This document shows, one piece after another, positions 1,390-5,407 of a stretch of DNA of 5,407 nt. Origin of the DNA: Chloroflexota bacterium (GTDB lineage: Bacteria; Chloroflexota; Dehalococcoidia; SAR202; UBA11138). The notes beneath the pieces were generated by a model. The model was not told where the DNA came from. It saw only the letters and a list, made by a program, of their open reading frames with translations, and ran no database searches. Both the position numbers and the translations under genes were made by a program. Within the stretch, counting starts at the first letter, position 1. Every line of letters starts with the position of its first letter. The DNA lies in NCBI GenBank assembly GCA_002710885.1, contig PAIW01000020.1, forward strand, positions 4,345 through 9,751, read 5' to 3'.

Positions 1390-3366
1390 ATGGCGACACC
1401 GCAGTTTCAACATCTGTTTACCCCGTTCACCGTCGGCTCTGTGACCGTGCGAAACCGAATCGTCGTCCCCGGCCATGCCACTCTGTTCATGCCGGCTGAC
1501 GGACTTCCCACGGAACGGATGCTGCATTACTGGCTCGCCAAGGCCCGTGGCGGTGTTGGCCTGATTATGACCCATGTCCACAACGTCATGCCGCACCATA
1601 CCGGCGCTCCTCCAGTCGCTCTCCAGACCGACGCCATAGTACCGGCTTACCGAAAAGTTGTGGACGCGCTACACGATGAAGGCGTTAAGTTCTTTCTCCA
1701 ACTCAACCACGTTGGAGGCGAGGGCAATTCGCGCATGTTCGGCGGCGTTGTGCTGGCTCCCTCTGCTGTGCGCTCGACGAGAGCGAACTTCCTGCCGACC
1801 GCCCAGGAGACTCCACATGAGATGGAGATCAAAGACATAGACGAAGTAGTCGAAGCGTTCCGCCAGGCGGCGTCGAAAGCCAGAGAGGCCGGGTTTGACG
1901 GCGTCGAGATTCAGGGCGAGGTCTCGTTCATGCTGGCCCAGTTCATGTCCCCGGCCAGGAACCACCGTCAGGATAGTTACGGCGGAAGCCTCGACAATCG
2001 GCTCAGATTCGCCAGAGAAGTGATCGCCGCCGTGCGAGGTGGAATAGGCTCGGGCAGAGTCGTAGGAATGCGGATCAGCGGCGATGAGTACTTCGAAGGC
2101 GGCCTAACTCTCGACGACACAATCCTAATTGTTCCGCGCCTTGAGGCCACAGGGCAACTGGACTTCATTCATGTTGGCGCAGGCCCCGGCGCAGCGTCAC
2201 ACATCCCGCCGTCGTACCGCAAGGCCGGCAGTTTCGTTTACCTCACAGAGGCGATACGAAAGGTTACTGACCTGGCACTGATATGCTCTCAGCGGGTCAA
2301 TGACCCTCTGATAGCCGAATCTGTGCTGGCCAGCGGCGCGGCAGATCTCGTGTCAATGAACCGAGCTATCATGACCGACCCGGAGATGCCGACCAAAGCG
2401 CGAGAGGGTCGTCTGGAGGAAATTCGCCACTGCATCGCCTGCAACGAGTGCATCGCGCGCGGTAGAATCGGCATGCCCATCGCCTGCACGATGAACGCCG
2501 AATTGGGCCGCGAGCAGCAGATGGCGATTGAAAAGACCGATACGCCCAGGCACGTTCTGGTCGTTGGTGGCGGCCCTGCTGGGCTTGAGGCTGCGCGAGT
2601 GGCGTCCCTGAGAGGACACCGGGTGACGCTATACGAGAAAGGCGACACCCTCGGAGGCCAACCGCTGATCGCATCTCAGGCTCCGGGCAGGGAAGAACTG
2701 GACGAAGTGCGACGCTATTACACCTACCAGATGGGATTGCAGGAGGTGGACGTTCACCTGAACACAGAAGCCACCTCCGAGACTATCGAACAGGAAGCGC
2801 CAGACGCCGTTGTGATCGCCACCGGATCGCGCGCTATTCTGTCCGAACTCACCGCCGACGACGTCCCCGTTGTGGACGTGAGAACTATCCTGTCTGGAGA
2901 AGCTGACATCGAGCCCGGCCAGCGTGTCGTCCTTCAAGCTGAAGACCACCACATGCAAGGTTTGACTGCCGCTGATTTTCTGGTCGAAAAGGGCTGCGAA
3001 GTGCAGGTCCTGACCGAAGCCGTGTACGCCGGATCGCAGATCGAGACTGGCACTCTTGAAACTTTATATCAACGCCTGCTGACCAAAGGAGTGACCCTCA
3101 CGCCGCTAACGACAATCAAACTCATTGACGGGCGCACCGTGGTCACAGAGAATACAATCTCGAAAGCGGAGGCCCGGATTCAGGGCGTTGACATGATCGT
3201 GGCATCCTACGGCAACGAGGCTTCTGACGAGCTTTACCGCGAGGTTAAGAGCGATGCAGATTCAACTAGCACCACCCCAGCCCTCTATCTGATAGGGGAC
3301 GCCTCGGCTCCTCGTCGATTGATGGACGCGATTCTCGACGGCGCTCGTGTGGGGCGCATTCTCTAG
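1390..3366 (+). CDS. FMN/4Fe-4S/FAD oxidoreductase of the trimethylamine dehydrogenase/2,4-dienoyl-CoA reductase family, with altered active site
   Basis: A 658-aa cytoplasmic flavoprotein. Residues 1 to about 340 form an old-yellow-enzyme TIM barrel that binds FMN (opening FQHLFTPFTVGSVTVRNRIV; signature SYGGSLDNRLRF). Residues 348-366 carry a 4Fe-4S site, C348-x2-C351-x2-C354-x11-C366, closer to trimethylamine dehydrogenase spacing than to FadH. Residues 388 onward form a nucleotide-binding domain with VVGGGPAG (about 391-398) and the C-terminal LIGDASAPRRLMDAI motif. The second dinucleotide fold (VVLQAEDHHMQG...) lacks GxGxxG, as in trimethylamine dehydrogenase. The usual H-G-A-H-x-Y segment of the barrel reads Q175-G-E-V178-S-F180, so the His and Tyr residues used by relatives are missing and the substrate is probably unusual. 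ATG at 1390 is chosen because the family N-terminus begins there, GGGTGA lies 7 nt upstream, and the promoter ends near 1312. It is the first gene of the plus-strand operon. Confidence 0.9.
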   Translation: MATPQFQHLFTPFTVGSVTVRNRIVVPGHATLFMPADGLPTERMLHYWLAKARGGVGLIMTHVHNVMPHHTGAPPVALQTDAIVPAYRKVVDALHDEGVKFFLQLNHVGGEGNSRMFGGVVLAPSAVRSTRANFLPTAQETPHEMEIKDIDEVVEAFRQAASKAREAGFDGVEIQGEVSFMLAQFMSPARNHRQDSYGGSLDNRLRFAREVIAAVRGGIGSGRVVGMRISGDEYFEGGLTLDDTILIVPRLEATGQLDFIHVGAGPGAASHIPPSYRKAGSFVYLTEAIRKVTDLALICSQRVNDPLIAESVLASGAADLVSMNRAIMTDPEMPTKAREGRLEEIRHCIACNECIARGRIGMPIACTMNAELGREQQMAIEKTDTPRHVLVVGGGPAGLEAARVASLRGHRVTLYEKGDTLGGQPLIASQAPGREELDEVRRYYTYQMGLQEVDVHLNTEATSETIEQEAPDAVVIATGSRAILSELTADDVPVVDVRTILSGEADIEPGQRVVLQAEDHHMQGLTAADFLVEKGCEVQVLTEAVYAGSQIETGTLETLYQRLLTKGVTLTPLTTIKLIDGRTVVTENTISKAEARIQGVDMIVASYGNEASDELYREVKSDADSTSTTPALYLIGDASAPRRLMDAILDGARVGRIL

Positions 3367-3399: not shown

Positions 3400-3405
3400 G
3401 GGAGG
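3400..3405 (+). promoter_or_regulatory. Ribosome binding site of the MerB-like selenoprotein
   Basis: GGGAGG lies 9 nt before ATG at 3415, a strong and well-placed Shine-Dalgarno sequence. It supports active translation of the gene rather than a decayed remnant. Confidence 0.75.
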
Positions 3406-3414
3406 AATACGGAT

Positions 3415-4050
3415 ATGGCCGACAATCAAATGCTCGACCGGGCGTTTCATAGCGTGATGCAGCGCTTCATAGACACCGGGCAAGCACCCCACTACACTGA
3501 GCTTGCAAGTGCGCTCGATGTGCCTGTGGAGGAAGGGCGTCAGATACTCCACGACCTCGTTGATAGCGGGATTCCGGCATGGCTCCATCCGGGAACAGAC
3601 TACATCGTCTCCTTCCCCCCGTTCAACAACCTGCCAACACAGTATCGTATCTCGGTCGACGGCCAACAGAGTTGGTTCGCGCAATGAGGATTCGAGGCGC
3701 TGGCGGTTCGCTGGCTGTTCCCCGGAAAAACGATACGCGTGGACGCCCCCTGCCTGGATTGCGGCGAGTCTATCGCAATCGAAATGAAGGACGAGGACTT
3801 GCTGTCCGTTGAGCCTGAAGGGATGGTAGGGTACGCCTACAGCGAGGTGGGTGGGTCTCCAGACAACAGACCCTGGAGGTGAGCGGGCATGAATCTCTTC
3901 CGGTCGGAAGAGCATGCTCGCAACTGGTCAGAATTCAATTCCGATTTCGAGGCCCAACCCTTATCGTTTTGGTTAGATCGTTTCAGCGCACCAATGTTCC
4001 GTGGGCGAAGCCGCAAGGACTACATTTCTTGGCGCGCTCAACAAGGCTAG
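3415..4050 (+). CDS. merB: MerB-like (organomercurial/alkylmercury lyase family) predicted selenoprotein with two selenocysteines, Sec91 and Sec156
   Basis: ATG at 3415 to TAG at 4048-4050 gives 211 codons if TGA at 3685-3687 (codon 91) and 3880-3882 (codon 156) are read as selenocysteine. MerB is about 212 aa. Residues 1-60 resemble the MerB winged-helix N-terminus; the core follows (PPFNNLPTQYRISVDGQ, then WFAQ-U-GFEAL; GKTIRVDAPCLDCGES; LLSVEPEGM; PWR-U-AGMNLFRSEEHA). Compared with MerB from R831b as recalled, Sec91 aligns with Cys96 (YAWCALDTL), Glu94 with Asp99, Cys113 with Cys117, and Sec156 with Cys159 (SFCCHVHFF). In MerB, Cys96, Asp99 and Cys159 cleave carbon-mercury bonds. No frameshift or other internal stop is present, and hairpins follow each TGA. 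Cytoplasmic; no signal peptide. It lies between the flavoprotein and cupin genes. The real substrate is uncertain because no other mer gene is visible. The alternative, a pseudogene with two nonsense mutations, is much less likely given their exact positions. Confidence 0.86.
3685..3687 (+). other. Predicted selenocysteine codon (UGA), Sec91
   Basis: In-frame TGA at codon 91 in the context WFAQ-U-GFEAL. It aligns with catalytic Cys96 of MerB (YAWC-ALDTL). The frame continues with clear family similarity after it. Confidence 0.82.
3688..3715 (+). promoter_or_regulatory. Candidate bacterial SECIS element for Sec91
   Basis: Inside the coding region, GCTGGCG (3699-3705) can pair with CGCTGGC (3709-3715): five Watson-Crick pairs and two G-U wobbles, closing a GUU loop. 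If the top G-C pair opens, the loop is GGUUC. The loop G sits 17-18 nt after the UGA, about the spacing in E. coli fdhF. The hairpin is modest, but its position and the GGU at the apex match the bacterial SECIS model recognised by SelB. Confidence 0.62.
3880..3882 (+). other. Predicted selenocysteine codon (UGA), Sec156
   Basis: In-frame TGA at codon 156 in the context PWR-U-AGMNLFRSEEHA. It aligns with catalytic Cys159 of MerB (SFC-CHVHFF). It lies 65 codons after the first TGA; MerB Cys96 and Cys159 are 63 apart. Confidence 0.85.
3883..3921 (+). promoter_or_regulatory. Strong bacterial SECIS element for Sec156
   Basis: The hairpin starts at the base right after the UGA. The lower stem is GCGGGCATG (3883-3891) with CATGCTCGC (3913-3921): 9 bp including one G-U. 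A 3-nt bulge AAU (3892-3894) follows on the 5' side. The upper stem CTCTTCC (3895-3901) pairs with GGAAGAG (3906-3912), 7 perfect bp, closing a GGUC loop (3902-3905). The loop begins 19 nt after the UGA. The E. coli fdhF SECIS likewise has a GGUCU loop and a bulged U below it. This is the strongest RNA structure I found in the window. Confidence 0.85.
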
Positions 4051-4135: not shown

Positions 4136-4486
4136 ATGCCAATAATCGAACACAGCGAAGCGCCTATGGCAGATGTCACGGAATACCGCCGCGAACGCGC
4201 TCTGGTGTCCAAAGAACAGGGCGCAACCTCGCTGACAGTGAAAGAACTAGAGCTTCAGCCAGGTTGGGAGGGCCGCCTGCACACGCACTCTACCGACATC
4301 GCCATTATGGTGATGGCTGGCGCGGTCCAGATCATCGTTGATGACGAAATCCGCACCGTTCGCGCAGGCTCCACGCTGCTGGCCCCGCCAGGAACGCCCC
4401 ACAAGCTAATCAACGAACTCTGGATACCAGCACAATTGCTGGCTATCTATCCCACAACTGAACTCGAAACCGCCTACTTAGAGTAG
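4136..4486 (+). CDS. Small single-domain cupin protein
   Basis: A 116-aa single-domain cupin beta-barrel. Cupin motif 1 is seen at G46-R-L-H49-T-H51 through G62; the two metal-binding His are present, but the usual Glu is absent, with Asp54 nearby. Cupin motif 2 is complete at residues 78-93 (G78-STLLA-P-P-G-T-P-H89-KLI-N93), so three His can hold a metal ion. The start ATG at 4136 follows GGAGG (4126-4130) by 5 nt and gives the common cupin opening MPIIEHSE; ATG at 4166 is a weaker alternative. Small cupins can be dioxygenases, isomerases, metal-dependent hydrolases or non-catalytic binding proteins, so the activity cannot be named. Its place between the MerB-like selenoprotein and the molybdoprotein suggests a role in the same process. 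Confidence 0.88.
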   Translation: MPIIEHSEAPMADVTEYRRERALVSKEQGATSLTVKELELQPGWEGRLHTHSTDIAIMVMAGAVQIIVDDEIRTVRAGSTLLAPPGTPHKLINELWIPAQLLAIYPTTELETAYLE

Positions 4487-4514: not shown

Positions 4515-5407
4515 ATGGTCATACAGTCAAGGATTGCCAAGGCGAAGCCGCAGATAATTCCCACCAACGCTGGAGGGCGGACTTTCGCCGTGCCGCCTAA
4601 AGCGCTGCAAAACAACATTGTGCCCAACGATCTTTTCTACATCAGAAATCACTGGAAAGAAGTCCCTGATATCGACGTCGCGTCCTATCGGTTAGCGGTG
4701 GGTGGCGAAGTTGAACGTCCGATCAGCCTGACGTTTGACGAGATAAAACAGCTTCCGCAAAAGCGATTTCAAGTCACTTTCGAGTGCTGCGGCAACAGCC
4801 CCGTGCCTGAATACTGGGCAAAATCCACCAGAACAAGCTCCGTAATGGAGCAGATCAAGGGCCACGGAATCATGGGCAACGCCGAGTGGGCAGGCGTGTC
4901 ACTGGCCGACGTCCTTGAACTAGCCGGCGTTAAATCTTCCGCGGTAGAGGTCATGTTCGAGGGCGCAGATCACGGCCCGGACGAAATTGTGGGCGATCCG
5001 GCGGAAGTTACCTACGAGCGGGCCATACCCATCGCCAAAGCGACACACGCCGACACACTGCTCGCCTACGAAATGAACGGAGACCCGCTGCCGCCGCCCC
5101 ACGGCTTCCCCCTGCGCCTCCTGGTTCCTGGCTGGTACGGCATGACGTCGATCAAGTGGTTGATGGGCATTCACGTCCTTGACCACGAGTTCCAGGGCTT
5201 CTACCAAAAAGAGCGGTACATGACCATGAACGAACCTGGGTCAGAAATCGCTTACACCGCCTACACCACAATGAAAATCAAATCCATCATCACCAACCCC
5301 GTTCCGGGCGAAATCGTCCCTACCGGCGACTACGTGGTTGCGGGGAAAGCGTGGTCCGGCGAGGATGACGTTGTTAAGGTGGAAATAAGCTCAGATGGCG
5401 GCGACAC
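4515..5407 (+). CDS. Sulfite-oxidase-family molybdopterin-dependent oxidoreductase, truncated by window edge
   Basis: ATG at 4515 opens a frame that runs without a stop to the right edge (297 complete codons). The sulfite oxidase fold is clear: an N-terminal YIRNHWKEVPDIDVASYRLAV block (about residues 42-62), GEVERPISLTFDEIKQLP, FECCGNS with C91 at the position of the molybdenum-ligating Cys, GNAEWAGVSLADVLELAGV, VPGWYGMTSIKWLMGIHVLD, and the start of the Mo-co dimerization domain (IITNPVPGEIVPTG...VVKVEISSDGGD). No Tat or Sec signal is visible at the N-terminus, so the protein is probably cytoplasmic. In animal sulfite oxidase the Cys loop reads C-A-G-N-R-R; here it is C-C-G-N-S-P, so the substrate-binding Arg is not conserved at this position and sulfite may not be the substrate. 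The ribosome binding site is weak (AGAGAG). The gap after the cupin is 28 nt, consistent with one operon. Confidence 0.88.
   Translation, partial: MVIQSRIAKAKPQIIPTNAGGRTFAVPPKALQNNIVPNDLFYIRNHWKEVPDIDVASYRLAVGGEVERPISLTFDEIKQLPQKRFQVTFECCGNSPVPEYWAKSTRTSSVMEQIKGHGIMGNAEWAGVSLADVLELAGVKSSAVEVMFEGADHGPDEIVGDPAEVTYERAIPIAKATHADTLLAYEMNGDPLPPPHGFPLRLLVPGWYGMTSIKWLMGIHVLDHEFQGFYQKERYMTMNEPGSEIAYTAYTTMKIKSIITNPVPGEIVPTGDYVVAGKAWSGEDDVVKVEISSDGGD

Follow-up and report, generated by a model that had tools for sequence, protein, structure and literature searches.

What is made from a gene whose reading frame is interrupted by two TGA codons, when both of them stand where an enzyme family has its catalytic cysteines? 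This question is raised by a 5,407-nucleotide stretch of DNA from a Chloroflexota bacterium (Dehalococcoidia, SAR202; contig PAIW01000020.1, positions 4,345 to 9,751 of the forward strand), which is called the window here in its full length. It carries a frame whose ATG follows a GGAGG motif and nine further bases and which, with TGA read as selenocysteine (Sec, U), gives a protein of 211 residues with U91 and U156 before a TAG stop. An earlier note on this DNA had described such a single frame, running from a ribosome binding site through two TGA codons, and translation confirmed it. From the sequence comparisons presented below, UGA is almost certainly decoded as Sec at both codons, and the protein as a whole is very probably an enzyme with the fold of the organomercurial lyase MerB and with Sec at both catalytic positions.

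The read-through protein can be placed in the MerB family by profile and by predicted structure. Indeed, the Pfam search that the earlier note had called for matched MerB (PF03243) over residues 72-183, a region spanning both TGAs, at 65.2 bits (gathering cut-off 27), and structure prediction gave a MerB fold, with 16-18% identity to MerB structures over the structural alignment. A profile alignment to solved MerB chains, whose signature residues we take to be numbered Cys96, Asp99, Cys117 and Cys159, sets residue 91 on Cys96, 94 on Asp99, 113 on Cys117 and 156 on Cys159, in agreement with the alignment previously made by hand. The same four signature positions are named in PMC8261052, which ascribes essential roles in MerB to Cys96, Asp99 and Cys159. 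MerB Cys117 is retained in the window protein as Cys113. The proton donor position is held by Glu, not Asp, in this protein and in most relatives; Glu94 is invariant in 37 of 37 rows of our alignment A2, and Asp at position 94 is carried by divergent copies. Beyond TGA156, M159, F162, R163 and H167 are likewise invariant in all 37 rows. The curated models of canonical MerB, NF009710 and NF033555, gave scores below their cut-offs (43.5 vs 193 and 32.7 vs 200 bits). Since the protein falls below these cut-offs and below that of SaoL, a MerB-like selenoprotein discussed at the end, it is named by no model of NCBIfam 20, none of which passes its own cut-off on the read-through protein.

The codons at sites 91 and 156 were then read in 103 distinct genes, including that of the window. 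They derive from the best 80 of 169 confirmed matches in genome contigs and from 393 genomes of the nearest relative's class, in which 25 copies were found in 23 genomes; two duplicates and one copy that could not be aligned were dropped. Of the 80 genome-contig loci, 55 have TGA/TGA, 24 have Cys/TGA and one has TGA/contig end; their aligned columns hold no further stop. By column, the 103 genes (91/156, U for TGA and C for Cys) are U/U in 66, C/U in 29, U/unread in 2, C/C in 2, C/Asp in 2, C/unread in 1 and U/Thr in 1. L102, L103 and L104 are gap shifts in which the stop stands beside column 156, the genome search having given TGA, and correction for them yields U/U 67, C/U 31, C/C 2 and three genes unread at 156. 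Codon 91 is TGA in 69 genes, TGC in 30, TGT in 4 and TGG in none; codon 156 is TGA in 95 by column (98 once the three loci are corrected) and Cys in two, which means TGA or Cys in 100 of 100 readable genes after gap correction. In-frame stops on the query columns comprise TGA156 in 95 genes, TGA91 in 69, TGA157 in one (the gap shift of L104) and a TAG in one (L095), and a further TGA stands in the gap column beside 156 in L102 and L103. Thus, as regards the residues and the scattered stops that the earlier note had wished to see checked in homologues, all readable DNA-level genes have Cys or TGA at the two codons, and one TAG was met among the 103. The gene bearing that TAG (at 125, with TGA91 and Ala94) is perhaps decaying.

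A tree was built from 102 rows after site 91 had been masked; along it the Sec/Cys label switches 10 times, with at least 8 of the switches on well-supported branches. Selenoprotein families are typically recognised by such repeated exchange of Sec and Cys at a catalytic position. According to the labels of the metagenome-assembled genome records, Sec91 occurs in Chloroflexota, Thermodesulfobacteriota, Myxococcota, Actinomycetota, Pseudomonadota, Poribacteria and Hydrogenedentota, while Cys91 is most frequent among the Acidimicrobiia records and is found in each of the four Rokuibacteriota rows. Divergent copies (L097, L101, L102, L103 and L105) have Cys91, Asp94 and TGA at site 156, and Sec156 may therefore be older than Sec91. 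Another divergent gene, L104 (G001:C74:40539-41069), is a second copy in genome G001; it has Asp94, and TGA stands at 91 as well as at 156. Two scans of viral collections gave no relative.

The machinery for Sec insertion was sought in the genome of a relative (L001, Dehalococcoidia UBA1123, genome G001) whose gene is 98% identical to that of the window. As the earlier note's proposal would lead one to expect, G001 has tRNA-Sec (67.6 bits), selA (542.6 bits), selD (386.9 bits, itself with an in-frame TGA) and, near a contig end, the N-terminal part of selB (286 bits). Three other genomes were searched as well; all of them have selD and one has selA. More broadly, tRNA-Sec is over the cut-off in 34 of 39 carrier genomes, with best hits of at least 64.8 bits; the cut-off of 47 is a lenient one, which 5 of 14 controls also pass. 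SelB, too, is over its cut-off in 34 of the 39 (2 of 14 controls pass). In the class sample, tRNA-Sec was detected at E <= 1e-10 in 258 of 393 genomes: of the 19 that carry a TGA-bearing copy 18 have it, and of the 374 others 240. Sec use is common in this class, which makes the enrichment a modest one.

Both TGA codons are followed by a hairpin that may act as a Sec insertion sequence (SECIS). PMC13188914 gives as rules for the bacterial SECIS (bSECIS) a stem of 4-16 bp, a loop of 3-9 nt, a G in the first two loop positions, a spacing of 16-37 nt and a minimum free energy <= -7.5, and isolated stem-loops in the window comply with them at both sites. Hairpin 2, at site 156, has 7 bp and a GGUC loop starting 19 nt past the TGA (-9.1 kcal/mol alone), and its motif, CTCTTCCGGTCGGAAGAG, is nearly frozen across genes. 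In counts uncorrected for relatedness, its seven stem pairs are kept in 89-95 of 95 genes, the outermost C-G being replaced by T-A in six. The 48-base stretch at this site has a z of -4.66 against shuffles in the window (mean -1.87 over 80 sequences), and the isolated hairpin follows the energy rule in 85 of 97 genes, two duplicate loci included. Codon choice in the hairpin 2 region, counted with the same duplicates and again uncorrected for relatedness, is TCG for Ser164 in 93 of 93 cases (23% in the rest of these genes), CTC for Leu161 in 89 of 89 (28%) and CGG for Arg163 in 92 of 96 (29%); it is at background for His167 and Ala168, just past the stem. Hairpin 1, at site 91, has a 6-bp stem and a 5-nt loop starting 17 nt past the TGA, and the window also allows an alternative of 7 bp around GUU (spacing 18 nt, -7.7 kcal/mol for the stem-loop alone). 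The six stem pairs of hairpin 1 are kept in 67-69 of 69 TGA genes and in 23-29 of 34 Cys genes, relatedness again being uncorrected. The hairpin after codon 156 is a strong SECIS candidate, stronger than the hairpin after codon 91, for which the assignment as a SECIS is less firmly supported.

Some of our results weigh against this reading of the locus. Taken alone, hairpin 1 attains -7.5 kcal/mol in no more than 18 of 70 TGA91 genes (duplicates included), and the 48-base stretches at site 91 are no better than shuffles (z 0.75 in the window; mean z 0.44 over 57 TGA91 genes). Stretches with Cys91 are more stable on average (TGC -17.6, TGT -15.9, TGA -12.4 kcal/mol), and plain folding energy therefore does not single out Sec91. 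A test on phylogenetically independent pairs, relating hairpin 1 to Sec91, went in the expected direction without reaching significance (8 pairs, of which 3.4 same and 0 opposite; median p 0.25). At site 156, codon bias extends outside the hairpin to the residues between the TGA and the stem: Ser157 is AGC in 41 of 48 cases (26% expected), and Gly158 is biased too, less so. Among the 120 protein homologues listed of 695 (P0002-P0121, to which all protein tallies refer), one has Gly at site 91. Five of the 39 carrier genomes are without tRNA-Sec over the cut-off and five without SelB; G008, which has a SelB fragment of 106.5 bits, and G033 are without both, and in the class sample the TGA-bearing genome G397 is without tRNA-Sec. 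With respect to function, the neighbours are not conserved (765 neighbouring open reading frames of 81 sequences form 572 clusters), the most frequent neighbour family being present in only 10 of 81 loci, and MerA is over the cut-off in only 6 of 39 carrier genomes. The absence of MerA is not decisive, because 906 of 1795 merB-carrying genomes in one survey were also without merA (PMC8261052).

The protein databases suggest another answer to the question, since 30 of the 120 listed homologues have Trp at both sites (31 at site 91). If UGA were read as Trp, through a code 4-like genetic code or a suppressor tRNA, both sites would be ordinary tryptophans. Nevertheless, codon 91 is never TGG in the 103 genes read at the DNA level, so that Trp in these records is most simply TGA translated with table 4, and the rows in question come mostly from short metagenome contigs. 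Moreover, no in-frame stop interrupts selA in the nearest genome, nor the MerA-like match that scores best there. Given the lack of TGG, the hairpin constraint and the Sec machinery, Trp recoding was rejected as extremely unlikely. The two in-frame stops of the window copy could also be nonsense mutations in a decaying pseudogene, but genes from several phyla carry TGA in the same two columns, the 103 genes hold one stop besides these, and constraint persists at the codon level; the distribution of the TGA columns refutes this explanation, to which we give a practically negligible chance. A deliberate short protein of about 155 residues, with Sec (or Cys) at 91 and termination at 156, would account for the 83 of 120 listed homologues that stop exactly at residue 155 in databases (81 with Cys91, one with Trp, one with Gly). 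The invariant residues past TGA156, the three Cys/Cys homologues that run through (P0043, P0049 and P0090) and the position of the stronger SECIS candidate at that very codon argue against it, and we hold it to be very unlikely. The other listed homologues are one with Cys and Trp and three that end earlier or align oddly.

More weight must be given to the possibility that the double-Sec protein has the MerB fold and is not an organomercurial lyase, but binds or transforms a different soft metal or metalloid, attacks a C-X bond of another kind, or carries out redox chemistry with a diselenide; we regard this as a real alternative, somewhat short of an even chance. It is consistent with the Glu at the proton donor position, with the scarcity of MerA and with the result that no mer gene was recognised among 20 neighbour-cluster representatives scanned with Pfam (three of them without any Pfam hit). 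Within the window, no mer gene was recognised beside the selenoprotein gene either (Pfam, NCBIfam). It is also consistent with five Chloroflexota loci (L008, L009, L012, L015 and L018, the last titled SAR202) in which the double-TGA gene heads a molybdate-transporter-like cluster, in the order divergent HTH/PBP-like regulator, double-TGA gene, binding-protein gene and ABC ATPase, with a permease of one cluster also present in four of the five. Scanned examples from these loci scored 143 bits for ModA (cut-off 62.5) and 202.7 for ModB (cut-off 182.6), and stayed below the ModC cut-off (263 vs 285). The arrangement brings to mind the Sec-assisted organometal (SAO) system, where SaoL is paired with an ABC transporter. 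The names of the SAO system are those of PMC13188914, and no Sao binding-protein family was listed for the scanned proteins of the five loci. On the other hand, the catalytic positions retain Cys or Sec together with an acid, the divergent copies have Asp94, and the missing MerA is, as said above, indecisive.

We therefore return to the double-Sec enzyme of MerB fold, for which homology and fold, Cys/Sec exchange, the frozen hairpin after codon 156 and Sec machinery in carriers are strongly supported by computation; on such grounds, the double-Sec active site proposed in the earlier note is well supported. In this enzyme, UGA would be decoded as Sec at the two sites where MerB has its catalytic cysteines, and each UGA would be served by a SECIS hairpin of its own just downstream, with SelB and tRNA-Sec. 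MerB works by holding the metal between two chalcogenolates while an acid donates a proton to the carbon that leaves. Here, two selenolates might clasp the soft metal of an organometal compound, and Glu94, replacing Asp99, might protonate the leaving carbon, with cleavage of the carbon-metal bond. Selenolates should favour a mechanism of this type, and a review reports quicker Hg-C cleavage by selone mimics than by their sulfur analogues (PMC11639659). A role as carbon-metal lyase appears reasonably probable to us, and we see organomercury as the likeliest substrate with about an even chance.

The positions of the gene, of its elements and of its neighbours are gathered in Table 1.

Table 1. 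Features of the window (positions counted from its first nucleotide).
Feature	Position	Strand	Basis
GGAGG ribosome binding site	3401..3405	+	sequence reading
Read-through gene, 211 codons, putative MerB-family selenoprotein, Sec91 and Sec156	3415..4050	+	
TGA codon 91, at MerB Cys96	3685..3687	+	translation, codon tally of 103 genes
Glu94 codon, at MerB Asp99 (proton donor position)	3694..3696	+	translation, profile alignment
Putative SECIS hairpin 1	3699..3715	+	weaker support than hairpin 2
TGA codon 156, at MerB Cys159	3880..3882	+	translation, codon tally of 103 genes
Putative SECIS hairpin 2, CTCTTCC-GGTC-GGAAGAG	3895..3912	+	folding, pairing, codon choice
Upstream Oxidored_FMN / pyridine nucleotide flavoprotein (old yellow enzyme family)	1390..3366	+	profile matches
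Downstream cupin protein	4136..4486	+	profile match
Downstream sulfite-oxidase-like molybdopterin oxidoreductase, continues beyond the window	4515..5405	+	PF00174, NCBIfam

The flavoprotein gene ends 48 bases before the selenoprotein gene, and among the NCBIfam models its protein matches mycofactocin OYE 2 best, with 581 bits where the cut-off is 793. Further upstream, positions 430-849 of the minus strand encode an F420-dependent PPOX-class protein (TIGR03618, over cut-off). An Rfam scan of the window at E <= 1 gave no match, and ARAGORN found no tRNA in it.

The family spreads over Chloroflexota (including SAR202 records), sulfate-reducer lineages, Actinomycetota and others. As both catalytic cysteines appear to be replaced by Sec, databases often shorten or misread the protein, and the annotation error is systematic: fragments end at 155, just before Sec156, or Trp is written at the Sec sites. 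If our reading is true, the family would escape merB surveys, since its gene either carries no annotation or is entered as a fragment of 155 residues or with Trp at the Sec sites. We tentatively suggest that a selenium-dependent organometal-cleaving family with a paired-selenolate site might thus form an unrecorded route of breakdown of methylmercury, or of another organometal, that such surveys have missed. Were methylmercury the substrate, merB inventories of oceans and sediments may lack a widespread family. Natural Cys/Cys, Cys/Sec and Sec/Sec relatives permit a direct test of the contribution of selenium to carbon-metal bond cleavage.

Compared with MerB (organomercurial or alkylmercury lyase, PDB 3f0o and 1s6l; MerB2, 5c17), the window protein lacks Cys96 and Cys159, with TGA at both positions, where Sec would be the chemical homologue, and it has Glu94 in place of Asp99. 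A screen that requires Cys96, Asp99 and Cys159 would pass over such a family. MerB-like variants altered at signature residues, named 99Ser and 117alt, are described in PMC8261052; these change Asp99 or Cys117, unlike the window family with its putative Sec at the 96 and 159 positions.

SaoL (NF040728), the MerB-like organometallic lyase of the SAO system, is likewise a MerB-like selenoprotein. Its profile aligns with residues 13-136 of the window protein, which scores 39.4 bits against a cut-off of 140, and the table of PMC13188914 gives SaoL one Sec, in a CU motif, whereas two are predicted here. No Sao family was listed for the window's neighbours within its 5.4 kb, the flavoprotein having been seen for the best 25 of 88 families. 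Because the 159-position SaoL profile ends at about site 156, the Sec of SaoL may lie near that site; if so, Sec at site 91 is the new element. The table of this 2026 review, which counts 119 families and subfamilies, lists SaoL as its one MerB-like selenoprotein; in a term search, MerB occurred in the main text of PMC13188914 only in the SaoL row (two occurrences) and was absent from the main text of PMC2398784, PMC5029168 and PMC12013277. The earlier note knew of no MerB-family selenoprotein with both catalytic cysteines replaced, and we found no report of a double-Sec MerB in the open-access literature, but a one-Sec MerB-like protein was already listed, so that the remark on novelty stands for the double replacement and not for Sec in a MerB-like protein as such. 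Relative to what is known, the new element would thus be a MerB-superfamily selenoprotein in which both catalytic residues are Sec. Two Sec are also present in other prokaryotic selenoproteins of the same table (a UxxU metal-binding protein and a Prx-like UxxU protein); there they belong to a UxxU motif, whereas in the window protein they are 65 residues apart and would be joined by the MerB fold. It would be unusual for both members of a catalytic cysteine pair to be replaced by Sec and for these two, although far apart in the chain, to meet in a single metal site.
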